Source: a virus. Taken from it: 26,515 nucleotides of DNA. This document shows positions 5,093-8,940 of the stretch, piece by piece. Numbering within the stretch: the stretch's first letter is position 1; each line of letters starts with the position of its first letter. Both the position numbers and the translations under genes were made by a program. The stretch covers positions 1-26,515 of the IMG/VR virus record IMGVR_UViG_3300010885_015140; one strand, given 5' to 3'. Under the pieces are notes generated by a model, which was given only the letters and a program-made list of their open reading frames with translations, did not search any database and had not been told where the DNA came from.

Positions 5093-5482
5093 TTATGGTA
5101 ATGCGATTCTAAAAGCGTGTTTGGTGTGGATCATTGTGACAATCTTTGGCACATTTGTGTTGTTCTCAAAGTCGGTAGTCTGCGGAAGATGCATAGTAAT
5201 CCATTCAGGCTTCAAATGAATCAAATCAAAGAAATAGATGTTTTCGGGTGTCGAGCAGACATACCACGGCGATAAACCTAATTCCTGCCCCATTGTCATC
5301 ATTGCATCGTATTTGGCTTGCTCTAATATCAGTTCATCATAGTGAGTGCGCCGGCATTTGAGTTCAAAGTAAGAGTTAGTTGCTGGCGATACACAATCCC
5401 ACTTGGAATATGGATGCGGTGACGGTATCAAGTCAGGCATTATGTTTTTCTTAAGATACATAAACAAAGTTTCTTCGGTCAC
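5093..5482 (-). CDS. PD-(D/E)XK nuclease-like protein
   Basis: 129 residues from a GTG at 5482. That GTG overlaps the stop of the Mom-like gene as GTGA and has AAAGGAG correctly placed upstream. An ATG at 5521 is possible but lies deeper in the neighbour. The core WDCVSPATNSYFELKCR places D29, E40 and K42 in the D-x10-E-x-K pattern of the restriction-endonuclease fold, followed by a helix with EQAKYDAM. It probably cuts or trims DNA during replication, recombination or host takeover. The exact substrate cannot be told. It sits between the DNA-modification gene and the primase-helicase unit. Confidence 0.7.
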   Translation of the reverse strand: MTEETLFMYLKKNIMPDLIPSPHPYSKWDCVSPATNSYFELKCRRTHYDELILEQAKYDAMMTMGQELGLSPWYVCSTPENIYFFDLIHLKPEWITMHLPQTTDFENNTNVPKIVTMIHTKHAFRIALP

Positions 5483-6144
5483 TTGCTCTCCTTTGGATAA
5501 GCCTCTTGTTGCCATATGCAAACAATCTTTTTATCAAGCAAATATAGATAACGATGTTTGCGCGATCTAGGCATCCATTGCCCTTCTAAACCTTTAACTT
5601 TTCCTCTTGAAAGTTTTGTGCCATTTGAAAGTATAAAATCATTTTTTTGAGGTGATAAACCGTGATAAGTAAAATTTGCAGCTTGATAAACTGCTCCAAT
5701 GTGACGAGATGAATCTGCATAACTTATGACTGCTTTTATATTTAATTTCTTTAATTCACGCAAAGAGCGAGCAATTAAATAAGAACCATAATTGGCGCCA
5801 TTGAGATGAGAACTAAGCACTAGCCGGCTCATTTCTAAAAATTCAGGATAACTGCCTCTTGGTAAACCAAAAGCCGATGTTGCTGATTCGGGAACTGATA
5901 AAGGCGAATAAACAACTGCGCCTTGTAATTCATTTTTTATGTAAAGCCCAAAACAATACTGACCAATAAAACGCTTTGACCCTAAATAATGAAATGATTT
6001 TACTAAATCATATGCTTCTTGATATTTAATACCAGCAACATATTGGAGCGATGAAGTCGGAATTGAACCGCTATCTGATAACTGGAACGCCATCTGTGTT
6101 GCCATTACACCATCATCGCATATCTCGTTAATCATAACATTCAC
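5479..6144 (-). CDS. mom: Mom-like DNA adenine modification protein (GNAT fold)
   Basis: 221 residues from a GTG at 6144 that overlaps the stop of the upstream zinc-ribbon gene (GTGA). TTG at 6159 and ATG at 6135 are alternatives. Motifs shared with phage Mu Mom are FHYLGSK near residue 50, LQGAVVYSPLS, FLEMSRLVLSSH and VISYADSSRHIGAVYQAANFTYHGL. Mom proteins convert adenine in phage DNA to N6-methylcarbamoyl-adenine and so block many host restriction enzymes. The protein acts on DNA in the cytoplasm late in infection. In Mu, mom is translated only when the Com zinc protein, encoded by the overlapping upstream gene, remodels the mRNA. The layout here looks the same. Family assignment is by remembered motifs. 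Confidence 0.8.
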   Translation of the reverse strand: MNVMINEICDDGVMATQMAFQLSDSGSIPTSSLQYVAGIKYQEAYDLVKSFHYLGSKRFIGQYCFGLYIKNELQGAVVYSPLSVPESATSAFGLPRGSYPEFLEMSRLVLSSHLNGANYGSYLIARSLRELKKLNIKAVISYADSSRHIGAVYQAANFTYHGLSPQKNDFILSNGTKLSRGKVKGLEGQWMPRSRKHRYLYLLDKKIVCIWQQEAYPKESK

Positions 6145-6311
6145 TTGCTGCCACCCCAACCCTCACCCTTAAAGATAGAGAGAATGGGCGTATAAATACG
6201 GATCAATGGTTTTTCGCAATCTTCACAATAGGGCAGTTCTTTATTATCTATCGGCAACGTCAGCTCGAATGTCTGAGCGCATTGCTCGCATTTGTAATCA
6301 TAGTTCGGCAT
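6141..6311 (-). CDS. FmdB-type zinc-ribbon protein, possible Com-like regulator
   Basis: 56 residues from the ATG at 6311, chosen because GGGGG lies five bases upstream and because MPNYDYKC is the standard start of the FmdB/CxxC regulatory family. Two CxxC pairs (CEQC and CEDC) make one zinc ribbon. The tail ends in GEGWGGSK. The last four bases overlap the GTG start of the Mom-like gene. In phage Mu a zinc protein of similar size (Com) occupies exactly this place and switches on mom translation. The two sequences are not obviously related, so a Com-like role is inferred from position and zinc ribbon only. Confidence 0.72.
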   Translation of the reverse strand: MPNYDYKCEQCAQTFELTLPIDNKELPYCEDCEKPLIRIYTPILSIFKGEGWGGSK

Positions 6312-6345
6312 CATTTCCCCCGTTCGTTTAGTCAATCTATTGCGT

Positions 6346-6404
6346 GGCGTTTTGGGAATCGAACCCAATGACTTCCCCACAAAGTCAGTATCCAATACAA
6401 CGCC
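6346..6404 (-). ncRNA. Compact tRNA-like cloverleaf (59 nt)
   Basis: On the minus strand four perfect stems fit together with no linker bases. GGCGTT/AACGCC closes the structure (6 bp). GTAT-TGG-ATAC forms a D-like arm, TGACTT-TGTGGGG-AAGTCA a 7-base-loop anticodon-like arm, and TTGGG-TTCGATT-CCCAA a T arm whose loop matches the universal TTCRANN consensus. All 21 pairs are Watson-Crick. It lacks U8/A9, a variable loop and a proper 3' CCA. The loop reads like proline UGG but has G in place of U33. It is therefore a tRNA mimic, a decayed tRNA, or a regulatory RNA, rather than a normal tRNA. Confidence 0.6.
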
Positions 6405-6440
6405 GCCTTTTCCCTCACCCGAAAGGATAAAAGGTGAAGT

Positions 6441-6896
6441 TTACTTAACTGGCGTTGCCCCGAGTTGTGCCAGTAGAGCTGCTACTTCAGGTGTGATGGT
6501 GCCAGCAGCCACAGGCGCCGCCACTGCAGCGGCAGGTGCAGGTGTTCCACCGATGTAGGCATTTGCCTTGGCAACGGCGGTTGCATCATTTGTTGCATCT
6601 AGCAGAATCCACGGTGCTGATTTGCCGGGCTTGGCAGTACCTTGACCAATACGGGCAAGGACTTTGTGACCGACCTTAGATTTCAATGCGTTCTTAAGAG
6701 CAACATTGAAAAACAACACATTGTTGTGAACTGCATTATCGTCAAGATTGACAATGTTTACTTCGATTGCATCAGTCTCGCCGTGAACGGTTTGAATACC
6801 GCTCTTATATTCGATTGGCTCGATGATGAGTAACTTGCCGTTGAGATCAGCAACCTTCACTGATTCTGTTGCTGCGCTTGGTGCTTCGAAAGCCAT
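6441..6896 (-). CDS. Putative single-stranded-DNA-binding (OB-fold-like) protein
   Basis: 151 residues, ATG start behind AGGGGGAGCC. Residues 15-105 look like a beta-rich barrel (DLNGKLLIIEPIEYKSGI, then AIEVNIVNLDD, LFFNVALKNAL, HKVLARIGQG). A low-complexity Ala/Pro hinge (GGTPAPAAAVAAPVAAG) then leads to a short C-terminal helix. A folded beta domain with a flexible tail in a replication cluster suits a phage SSB, although the tail here ends in a short helix rather than in acidic residues. It is encoded next to a Cas4-like exonuclease and upstream of the tRNA-like element. The OB-fold claim needs a structure prediction. Confidence 0.6.
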   Translation of the reverse strand: MAFEAPSAATESVKVADLNGKLLIIEPIEYKSGIQTVHGETDAIEVNIVNLDDNAVHNNVLFFNVALKNALKSKVGHKVLARIGQGTAKPGKSAPWILLDATNDATAVAKANAYIGGTPAPAAAVAAPVAAGTITPEVAALLAQLGATPVK

Positions 6897-7044: not shown

Positions 7045-7781
7045 TATTTGGTATCTCCTGCACAAGCCTTAGATGGATCATCGCTAAAGGGTCTGAAATA
7101 TGGGCAATAGTTACAAAGGCGTGACGGCGCGATTGGAATCATTGACCACATATCAGGGTTTGCTTCAACATCTACGGTTGAGAGCAAAGTGTAAATAGAA
7201 TCAAGGCGAGCAAGGGCATCGAGTGCAACCTGCTCATCATATGGGTGCAGCTCCACATACATATCTGTAATGGAACCGCCGGTTGGCAGATAGATAAGGC
7301 CAACAAAATTTACGGTCACGCCCTGTTGGGCTTTGCCATAGGCATAAAGCATTGTTTGAATAACATTTTGCTCGGTGGCACCTTCACGCTTTCGCACTTG
7401 AAGATTAGATGGTGAAGTTGTTTTCCAATCTAGGACTGCGCCTAATTCTTTATCGAATAGGTCAATAGTGCCTGATAAGTTGGCACGAATCTTGACCTTT
7501 TCTTCAACTTCATATCGTTCAGGCATCTTGCTAAAAATCTTTTCCAAGTGTGAGTGAATTGCAGTTCCCACTTGGCTTGCCCAATTACCGCCTGAGCCTT
7601 CATTGACCTTTTCCCACGCCAGCAGCTTGTATGCCAATTTGCGGGTACATTTTTCACCAACTTCACTTGGGCCAATATAAACCTGTTGTGATCGTGGTGC
7701 ATAAATGCCAGCATCGGTAATCATCTTGGCTAAATCTCTACCAAGATTTTCTGCTGGCGTGGTTAAAGGTGTGAATGTCAT
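7044..7781 (-). CDS. Cas4-like / RecB-type Fe-S exonuclease
   Basis: 245 residues, ATG start. The PD-(D/E)XK core has H76 (GTAIHSHLE), D107 (GTIDLFD), D118 and K120 (VLDWKTT), and a QTMLYAYG motif IV helix. Four cysteines, C45 (EKCTRKLAY) and C223, C226, C240 near the C-terminus, have the split arrangement that holds a 4Fe-4S cluster in Cas4 and AddB. Such enzymes resect DNA ends to give single strands for recombination. Here it sits beside an SSB-like gene and near a Holliday-junction-resolvase-like gene. No other cas genes or CRISPR array are visible, so a phage recombination role is more likely than adaptation. Confidence 0.85.
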   Translation of the reverse strand: MTFTPLTTPAENLGRDLAKMITDAGIYAPRSQQVYIGPSEVGEKCTRKLAYKLLAWEKVNEGSGGNWASQVGTAIHSHLEKIFSKMPERYEVEEKVKIRANLSGTIDLFDKELGAVLDWKTTSPSNLQVRKREGATEQNVIQTMLYAYGKAQQGVTVNFVGLIYLPTGGSITDMYVELHPYDEQVALDALARLDSIYTLLSTVDVEANPDMWSMIPIAPSRLCNYCPYFRPFSDDPSKACAGDTK

Positions 7782-8113: not shown

Positions 8114-8485
8114 TTAGTAATATGAGTGGGTTTTCCAAAATGACCAAGCGGCGCACGGGCCACCTGATCCATACTTGCGCCCAATATATGCAAGTGCTGC
8201 TACGGTCTGAGCAACAGTAGATTTACTGCGCTTCATACCGAGATTGCGATAGGTATCATCTAACAGTTGTCCAACCCCACGGGCTGAACTTGTCGGATTC
8301 TTGTGGTCCTTCCAGTGGCTTTCTCTAACCATTATGTTATTGAAGCACTTGAAGTCCTTGGGTGTGAGCAGCTCTTTAGCCACTTCACGAGCATCCACCT
8401 GCATTAGCGGTGTGCGCTCTTTGTAGATAATCAACTCCGGCACTGCCTGAGTCGCTGAAACAACTCCGCTTATTATGGCGGTCAC
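8114..8485 (-). CDS. Secreted lysozyme-like / aggregation-promoting-factor-type protein
   Basis: 123 residues from GTG at 8485 (GTGA overlap with the WhiB gene stop). From the GTG start, residues about 46-123 resemble lysozyme-fold cell-wall enzymes of the aggregation-promoting-factor C-terminal family: IMVRESHW with the likely catalytic Glu, SSARGVGQLL, AYIGRKYGSGGPCAAW and a final HSYY. The reading frame upstream of the GTG continues without stop to 8552 and encodes a basic stretch followed by a long hydrophobic run. Together these would make a full signal peptide, starting perhaps at a non-standard ATC (8536). It may loosen the wall or block superinfection from outside the membrane. Confidence 0.7.
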   Translation of the reverse strand: MTAIISGVVSATQAVPELIIYKERTPLMQVDAREVAKELLTPKDFKCFNNIMVRESHWKDHKNPTSSARGVGQLLDDTYRNLGMKRSKSTVAQTVAALAYIGRKYGSGGPCAAWSFWKTHSYY

Positions 8486-8940
8486 GATGAGGATTCCAAG
8501 GATTGTGAGGAATCTTCTTTTGTCTCTTGGTGTGATTGGATTTCTCCTTTTCTAGTTACCCCAAACTGGCTCAAAATCTTTCGGACATAACCGAGAGATG
8601 TGTTGAGTTCGGATGCAATTTCGTTAGCAGTAAATCCCCGATCATTGAAATCAATGATGCTATTGGCAATGGTGCCAACTGGTATTCGATTAGGGCGAAC
8701 AACATATGCTCGCTCTTTAGGCGTTTGACCGCCCCAAATTCCATAAGGGATTTCCTTGCTTATGGCATATTCCAAGCACTCCTTTCTGTGGATACAACTG
8801 AAGCATAATGCTTTCAACTGTGGCAGTCTCTCTGCCTCGTTTACACGACCATCAGGGAAAAAGAAATCTTTGTCCTCGATAGTTGCACAAACTGCTTGTG
8901 CGAAGTCAGGTGCATCGCAAAGGACATCTCTAATCGTCAT
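8482..8940 (-). CDS. whiB: WhiB-family Fe-S regulator with C-terminal helix-turn-helix
   Basis: 152 residues, ATG start. The four cluster cysteines are C18, C46, C49 and C55 (C-x2-C-x5-C spacing), followed by the WhiB signature GIWGG (67-71) and a basic PKER. Residues about 88-130 form an extra helix-turn-helix (FTANEIASELNTSLGYVRKILSQF), then a Ser/Gln/Glu-rich tail. WhiB proteins bind 4Fe-4S and the host sigma factor; phage copies such as that of TM4 repress host whiB2 and block superinfection. The added HTH would give it its own DNA specificity. It is the best host marker in the window, since WhiB is confined to Actinobacteria and their phages. Confidence 0.92.
   Translation of the reverse strand: MTIRDVLCDAPDFAQAVCATIEDKDFFFPDGRVNEAERLPQLKALCFSCIHRKECLEYAISKEIPYGIWGGQTPKERAYVVRPNRIPVGTIANSIIDFNDRGFTANEIASELNTSLGYVRKILSQFGVTRKGEIQSHQETKEDSSQSLESSS

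Follow-up and report, generated by a model that had tools for sequence, protein, structure and literature searches.

A tRNA-Gly-like RNA linked to phage mom genes and its proposed role as glycine donor in DNA modification

A class of tRNA-Gly-like RNAs co-occurs near-exclusively with Mom, a family of DNA modification enzymes, and keeps the glycine identity of a tRNA without its decoding features. We found it in a viral DNA stretch of 26,515 nucleotides (hereafter, the window), where one such RNA, element B, is located ∼230 nt downstream of a miniature tRNA-like cloverleaf, element A; an earlier sequence-only reading of the window had listed element A but not element B. We propose that the two tRNA-like RNAs have different jobs. 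For element B, the patterns of conservation make it likely that DNA hypermodification by Mom is aminoacyl-tRNA dependent, such that a non-decoding tRNA-Gly of many phages, in most cases overlapping mom, would be charged by the glycyl-tRNA synthetase (GlyRS) of the host and Mom would put its glycine on adenine in DNA.

Results

The mom Region of the Window

The genes and RNA elements of the region are all on the minus strand (Table 1). The Mom-family protein of the window also has the Mom fold: its AlphaFold model (pLDDT 85.5) had as its best Foldseek match 8bv8, the crystal structure of phage Mu Mom (E 1.8e-11). The zinc ribbon directly before mom, preceded by GGGGGA in the window sequence, is absent in the relatives, and a Pfam search with the CL0 protein returned no family. 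Further away, an ORF at 8482-8940 (minus strand) looks WhiB-like by eye and suggests an actinobacterial host.

Table 1. Features of the mom region in the window, in order along the minus strand
Feature	Position	Strand	Basis or description
CL0, conserved phage gene of ∼150 aa, upstream of element A	6441..6896	-	24 loci
Small hairpin with AUCCUUUC in its loop, after the CL0 stop codon and before element A	6415..6437	-	sequence
Element A, 59-nt linker-free miniature tRNA-like cloverleaf	6346..6404	-	sequence, relatives, covariation
Com-like zinc-ribbon gene	6141..6314	-	start ATG 6312-6314; Zn_ribbon_8, E 1.2e-9
mom, Mom-family GNAT-fold DNA modification enzyme	5479..6135	-	PF25680, E 5.7e-28; best structural match 8bv8
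Element B	6044..6119	-	76 nt, tRNA-Gly(UCC)-like, U73-CCA encoded; in frame within the mom 5' end

The candidate starts of mom are the ATG at 6133-6135, upstream of element B, and an ATG within the D arm of element B. The window sequence has no in-frame ATG, GTG, or TTG between element B and the Mom domain, and no in-frame start codon was seen there in the loci inspected, so Mom has to be translated through element B or from within it.

A tRNA-Gly-Like RNA Inside the mom Frame

A scan with the Mom protein of the window gave ten viral relatives, all of which had element B just before the Mom domain. Standard tRNA finders come close to the element or pass over it: ARAGORN found no tRNA in the window, and the match of element B to the Rfam tRNA model RF00005 fell just under the cut-off (27.4 bits against 29; E 0.0025). 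Across 23 distinct copies, the acceptor, D, anticodon, and T arms of a cloverleaf are all present and standard pairs fill 99.0% of pair cells, in comparison with 90.7±0.7% in shuffles and 31-51% in slid controls; compensatory changes are seen at nine pairs. The invariant positions in these copies are G1-C72, C2-G71, G3-C70, U73, C35, and C36. As the determinants of bacterial glycyl-tRNA synthetase are G1-C72, C2-G71, U73, C35, and C36 (PMC9976931), element B retains the bacterial glycine identity set.

The rest of the molecule departs from a regular tRNA. The anticodon arm consists of a 6-bp stem and a 6-nt loop or, alternatively, of 5 bp and 8 nt; the 3' strand of the T stem has a bulged A63; and the D-loop GG is variable. 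Element B thus lacks two features required for decoding and EF-Tu, a 7-nt U33 anticodon loop and a regular T stem of 5 bp, and with its abnormal anticodon arm and bulged T stem we did not class it as an elongator tRNA-Gly.

Variation in element B is flat over the three codon positions (0.167/0.171/0.118), with 309 synonymous and 1951 nonsynonymous codon differences; the corresponding figures for the Mom body are 0.258/0.184/0.538, with 17113 synonymous and 12870 nonsynonymous differences. Judged from these patterns, element B is constrained as an RNA and not as a protein, and the flat variation led us to reject a constrained protein leader. At two loci (L044 and L185), the frame through element B stops one to seven codons past the tRNA, leaving a leader unfused to Mom. 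At their T-arm end, all ORF-nested Mom-linked tRNAs examined share one reading frame (..GG[SA]xPTxxLQ), whichever end of the gene they occupy, perhaps because of stop codons in the other frames.

Searching from the RNA Alone

We then reversed the search and used an RNA-only pattern, consisting of the bulged T arm and the acceptor end and containing no protein information. The pattern matched at least 120 viral stretches. Among the matches listed, 77 new viral loci all had a 7-bp acceptor partner and 72 of them contained a Mom ORF (E 2e-11 to 9e-62), in comparison with 0 of 91 control viral loci; in the five without Mom, the tRNA was no more than 350 nt from an end of the stretch, on the side expected for a 3'-type mom. 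Six genomes with a previously known Mom gave four matches, all beside Mom ORFs, and 400 genomes of one phylum gave two, both beside Mom ORFs and one of them new.

The viral pattern fixes the T arm, acceptor pairs 1-3, and U73-C74, and their conservation is there by construction. The positions left free tell the same story as the copies of element B. In 40 full-length 76-nt tRNAs, a subset of the 73 distinct viral tRNAs among the matches listed, 159 of the 160 cells for acceptor pairs 4-7 are paired, each of these positions has 4-5 pair types, and C occupies column 35 in all 40 and column 36 in 38. Among the same 73 tRNAs of the matches listed, CC is found in the anticodon loop of 72, while nt 33 and nt 34 are not conserved and loop lengths are irregular; the total length varies from 68 to 79 nt and includes forms almost without a D arm. 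The position relative to the gene differs as well: among the matches listed, the tRNA lies within the ORF at the mom 3' end in 39 cases and at the 5' end in 20, over the mom stop in 8, and after the ORF in 3, with 2 others.

Mom-Linked tRNAs in Other Lineages

A covariance model of element B, applied to 70 Mom loci of bacterial genome records, gave strong matches near mom (42.6-70.6 bits) in Chloroflexota, Clostridium, Ignavibacteria, and Chitinophagales records. Two of the 70 loci (L293 and L296) had an ordinary-looking tRNA-Gly near mom that lacks the bulged A. In Pseudanabaena phage Pan3 (L019:2104-2172) and in three related viruses, the mom 3' end is overlapped by a shorter tRNA-Gly-like RNA with U73-CCA, again without the bulged T-stem A; within this group pairing is preserved through changes in the anticodon and T stems, and the protein tail differs. 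Apart from L293, L296, and the Pan3 group, the bulged A recurs in the Mom-linked tRNAs. A descriptor for Pan3-type tRNAs, run over 400 kb of Mom loci, had five matches, each located at an edge of mom; the opposite strand had none.

The linkage is also found in a cultured phage, Psychrobacter phage vB_PmaS_Y8A (L418), which has two tandem tRNA copies after a Mom-family gene. This gene with its two tRNA copies (7125-7778 of the Y8A record) is annotated as hypothetical; the paper describing the phage reports no tRNA and assigns Mom to another ORF, at 39,393-40,157 (PMC10434257), and Y8A may thus have two Mom genes. In Roseobacter phage CRP-212 (L012), gp15, annotated as a MazG pyrophosphohydrolase, consists of a Mom domain and, after it, a MazG-like domain, with the annotated start falling inside the Mom domain. 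A Mom with a 3' tRNA, from L321, is 33.5% identical to phage Mu Mom over 90% of the length (E 4e-21).

Some Mom-type tRNA-Gly genes are ∼200 to 1300 nt away from mom (L251:1407-1482, L318:3032-3106, and L348:8089-8163, oriented). Pan3 carries a second tRNA-like element ∼1.2 kb after the mom-linked tRNA (L019:3362-3427; RF00005, 34.9 bits), which has a 5-bp acceptor, normal D and T arms, and an irregular anticodon arm with GGGA, and recalls element A.

The linked tRNA has its limits. A search of 79 distant viral Moms for tRNA-like elements returned only the already-known loci of elements A and B, and no linked tRNA-Gly was found at phage Mu mom. A phage-borne linked tRNA is therefore not general for Mom, and most Mom genes, including that of Mu, are without a recognised one. 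Searches for element B with distant blastn in annotated phages and with a narrow pattern in GTDB genomes gave nothing, as the queries were too close to the subgroup of the window; the T-arm pattern worked.

A Conserved Miniature Cloverleaf Upstream of the Cassette

For element A, re-reading the minus strand at its position bore out the four stems of 6+4+6+5 pairs without unpaired linkers that had been described from the sequence: GGCGTT GTAT-TGG-ATAC TGACTT-TGTGGGG-AAGTCA TTGGG-TTCGATT-CCCAA AACGCC. RNAfold on the given strand of the element predicted the same cloverleaf at -19.2 kcal/mol (z -2.1), with 7 of 200 shuffles equally good, and the signal was gone with 111 nt of context (z -0.3). 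The comparison with shuffled sequence proposed in the sequence-only reading thus came out in favor of the isolated element but not of the element within its surroundings, and folding energy is weak evidence for element A. In Rfam, the element had a weak match to tRNA-Sec (19.8 bits against a cut-off of 47).

Related phages gave a clearer answer, as the compensatory changes that the same reading had suggested looking for are present among 20 distinct relatives. The number of standard pair types is 4, 4, 3, 3, 2, and 4 for acceptor pairs 1-6 and 4, 3, and 4 for T-stem pairs 1-3, with 0 mismatches in either helix, which is partly by construction, most of the 20 copies having been chosen by the requirement that these helices pair. 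The variety of pair types is independent of this selection, and the copies from the window, L002, L003, L008, and L011 entered via their Mom gene. The 20 relatives show little or no change in the T-loop core, the D-loop GG, or the trailing A-C, and the cloverleaf is the minimum-energy fold in approximately three-quarters of the copies. Most of the ten viral relatives from the Mom scan have element A again, in the same fold with differing letters; one subgroup (L004, L005, and L030) has shortened acceptor and D stems. On the grounds of covariation, and not of folding energy, we conclude that element A is a real, conserved structured RNA. With the covariation and the conserved elbow, the earlier view of it as an RNA that mimics a tRNA without being a normal one stands. 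The acceptor pairs are too variable for a tRNA of one given synthetase, and we rejected that candidate.

CL0 is upstream of element A wherever both were seen (24 loci), and a hairpin is found at their junction in most relatives. The loop of this hairpin often has AUCCUUUC, resembling the 3' tail of 16S rRNA (6415-6437 of the window, minus strand, and relatives), and both the loop of element A and the subsequent Shine-Dalgarno (SD) sequences read GGGGA. The gene after element A varies and can be a Com-like zinc ribbon, a DNA methyltransferase, another gene, or Mom directly. A specific tie of element A to com/mom, suggested by the gene order in the window, was accordingly not borne out: the constant neighbor is CL0, after which element A is followed by many different genes, and we rejected element A as com/mom specific. 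Element A is a conserved RNA located where a core phage gene meets a variable cassette. The region downstream of it is a swap site for DNA-modification genes, including methyltransferases of several kinds and others, and otherwise similar phages have different genes after element A (L138, L146, L147, L168, L179, L181, L194, and L220).

Discussion

In the mechanism that we propose, element B and mom form a two-part DNA-modification system. The host glycyl-tRNA synthetase would charge the phage tRNA-Gly, and the abnormal anticodon arm and the bulge in the T stem, a binding site of EF-Tu, would keep the charged tRNA from EF-Tu and the ribosome. Mom, a GNAT-fold transferase, would then move glycine from Gly-tRNA to N6 of adenine in DNA. 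The known product of Mom is N6-carbamoylmethyl-adenine, which is an isomer of N6-glycyl-adenine, so that transfer of the glycyl group and a subsequent intramolecular rearrangement would lead to the known product without another carbon source. With element B nested in the mom frame, a transcript could yield the tRNA or the Mom mRNA, hardly both, and this may balance the two parts; excision of the tRNA from inside the ORF by RNase P and RNase Z is assumed. Moms without a linked tRNA, including that of Mu, would draw on host Gly-tRNA.

To our knowledge, no known DNA modification uses aminoacyl-tRNA, and a Gly-tRNA donor would make the Mom modification the first example. A close parallel is in the cell-wall synthesis of Staphylococcus, where the glycine of a non-ribosomal tRNA-Gly is used by Fem transferases. 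There, likewise, an altered tRNA-Gly diverts glycine from the ribosome to a transferase, as proposed here, but its target is peptidoglycan instead of DNA, whereas element B is phage encoded, overlaps the enzyme gene, and has a T-stem bulge and an irregular anticodon arm. The GNAT-fold enzymes TacT and AtaT2 are specific for Gly-tRNA-Gly (PMC9177977) and recognise U73 and G71 (PMC9976931); Mom has the same fold, and we count the likeness in favor of the donor role, although these enzymes acetylate the tRNA-bound glycine from acetyl-CoA and Mom would take the glycine off the tRNA. Counted against it are the structural neighbors of the window Mom, which after Mu Mom are CoA-dependent acetyltransferases, and a review describes the donor as an acyl-CoA such as glycyl-CoA (PMC7824862), not a tRNA. 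Phage Mu com-mom shares the Mom family and fold with the window, which also has a small zinc-ribbon gene directly before mom, but no tRNA-Gly was found at its mom. A literature search, with subscription papers and preprints, including possible work linked to 8bv8, mostly outside its scope, found no report of Mom with Gly-tRNA. Taken singly, Mom and tRNA-Gly are known families.

Other explanations of element B have to be weighed against this. It could be a cis-acting operator in the mom mRNA, where binding of Mom, GlyRS, or Com to the tRNA mimic switches translation and no glycine is transferred. Element B indeed spans the mom translation start in the group of the window, and Mu Com acts on the translation of mom mRNA (PMC6483171). 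Among the matches listed, however, the tRNA is mostly at, over, or after the mom 3' end (39 + 8 + 3 against 20 at the 5' end) and Y8A has its two tandem copies after mom, and an arrangement this varied, with copies in tandem, speaks against an operator that acts purely in cis; nor would an operator need U73-CCA and C35-C36. We thus consider this explanation unlikely. That many copies keep tertiary features and the UCC anticodon, and that some are recognised by Rfam and ARAGORN, would be expected of an ordinary phage tRNA-Gly aiding the translation of glycine codons. The irregular loop lengths, the unconserved nt 33 and nt 34, a T stem bulged in nearly all copies outside the Pan3 group, the 68-nt forms almost without a D arm, and the near-exclusive association with Mom make such a function highly improbable.

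We see little chance, too, that the RNA is a decoy or replacement tRNA-Gly which, placed beside another anti-defence gene, counters host defences attacking tRNA-Gly, such as GNAT toxins and toxSAS. TacT and AtaT2 act on Gly-tRNA-Gly (PMC9177977) and FaRel2 acts on tRNA-Gly (PMC11559606). A decoy would be expected away from Mom too, yet was not seen there in the viral loci and whole genomes covered, and the overlap with the mom gene would be left unexplained. Phages often integrate in tRNA genes, and a tRNA-derived attachment site would be in keeping with this general habit; such a site would be a partial tRNA copy beside an integrase, and the structures found are complete and covarying, deviate in the anticodon arm and T stem, and are accompanied by Mom in 72 of 77 loci among the matches listed. 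This makes integration the least credible of the explanations.

Use of the tRNA as a glycine donor for Mom would, if correct, join the translation machinery to phage anti-restriction and make the old open question of the donor of Mom testable by a simple reconstitution. More broadly, these loci show that tRNA genes can be nested in protein-coding frames and escape standard tRNA finders, and non-ribosomal tRNAs may have gone unnoticed as a class of phage genes.

The job of element A would be separate from that of element B and mom. A decayed tRNA serving as an attachment site, one of the ideas of the sequence-only reading, is a poor fit with a structure maintained by selection. The other two, a processing element and translational control, were retained as tentative candidates, and we rank the former slightly above the latter. 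Element A has the acceptor/T-arm stack and the elbow that are read by RNase P and RNase Z, as the D-loop GG and the T-loop core are invariant and the acceptor and T stems covary, and it would probably be recognised by tRNA-processing enzymes. From these features, one candidate role is that of tRNA-like punctuation for RNase P/RNase Z, which we regard as plausible but somewhat short of an even chance. In comparison with known elements cut by these enzymes, element A lacks the CCA (having A-C only) and has an intercistronic phage setting, and its cleavage is putative.

A role in steering downstream translation, through the purine-rich, SD-like GGGGA loop and the preceding, anti-SD-like hairpin with AUCCUUUC, is possible but rather doubtful. 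GGGGA or GGA is found in the second hairpin loop of most copies, and GGGGGA or a similar sequence stands before the genes that follow element A. The loop motif is variable, and missing in L181, whereas the elbow of D-loop GG and T-loop is invariant, which fits better with tRNA-processing enzymes. The model for translational control is provided by the thrS operator and T-box riboswitches, tRNA-like or tRNA-reading structures in mRNA; in contrast to those, element A precedes no synthetase gene and its downstream genes vary, and element B comprises an entire tRNA, CCA included, and frequently lies on the 3' side of its gene. We also considered pairing between the GGA loop of element A and the UCC anticodon of element B, which would comprise only three base pairs with an invariant partner.
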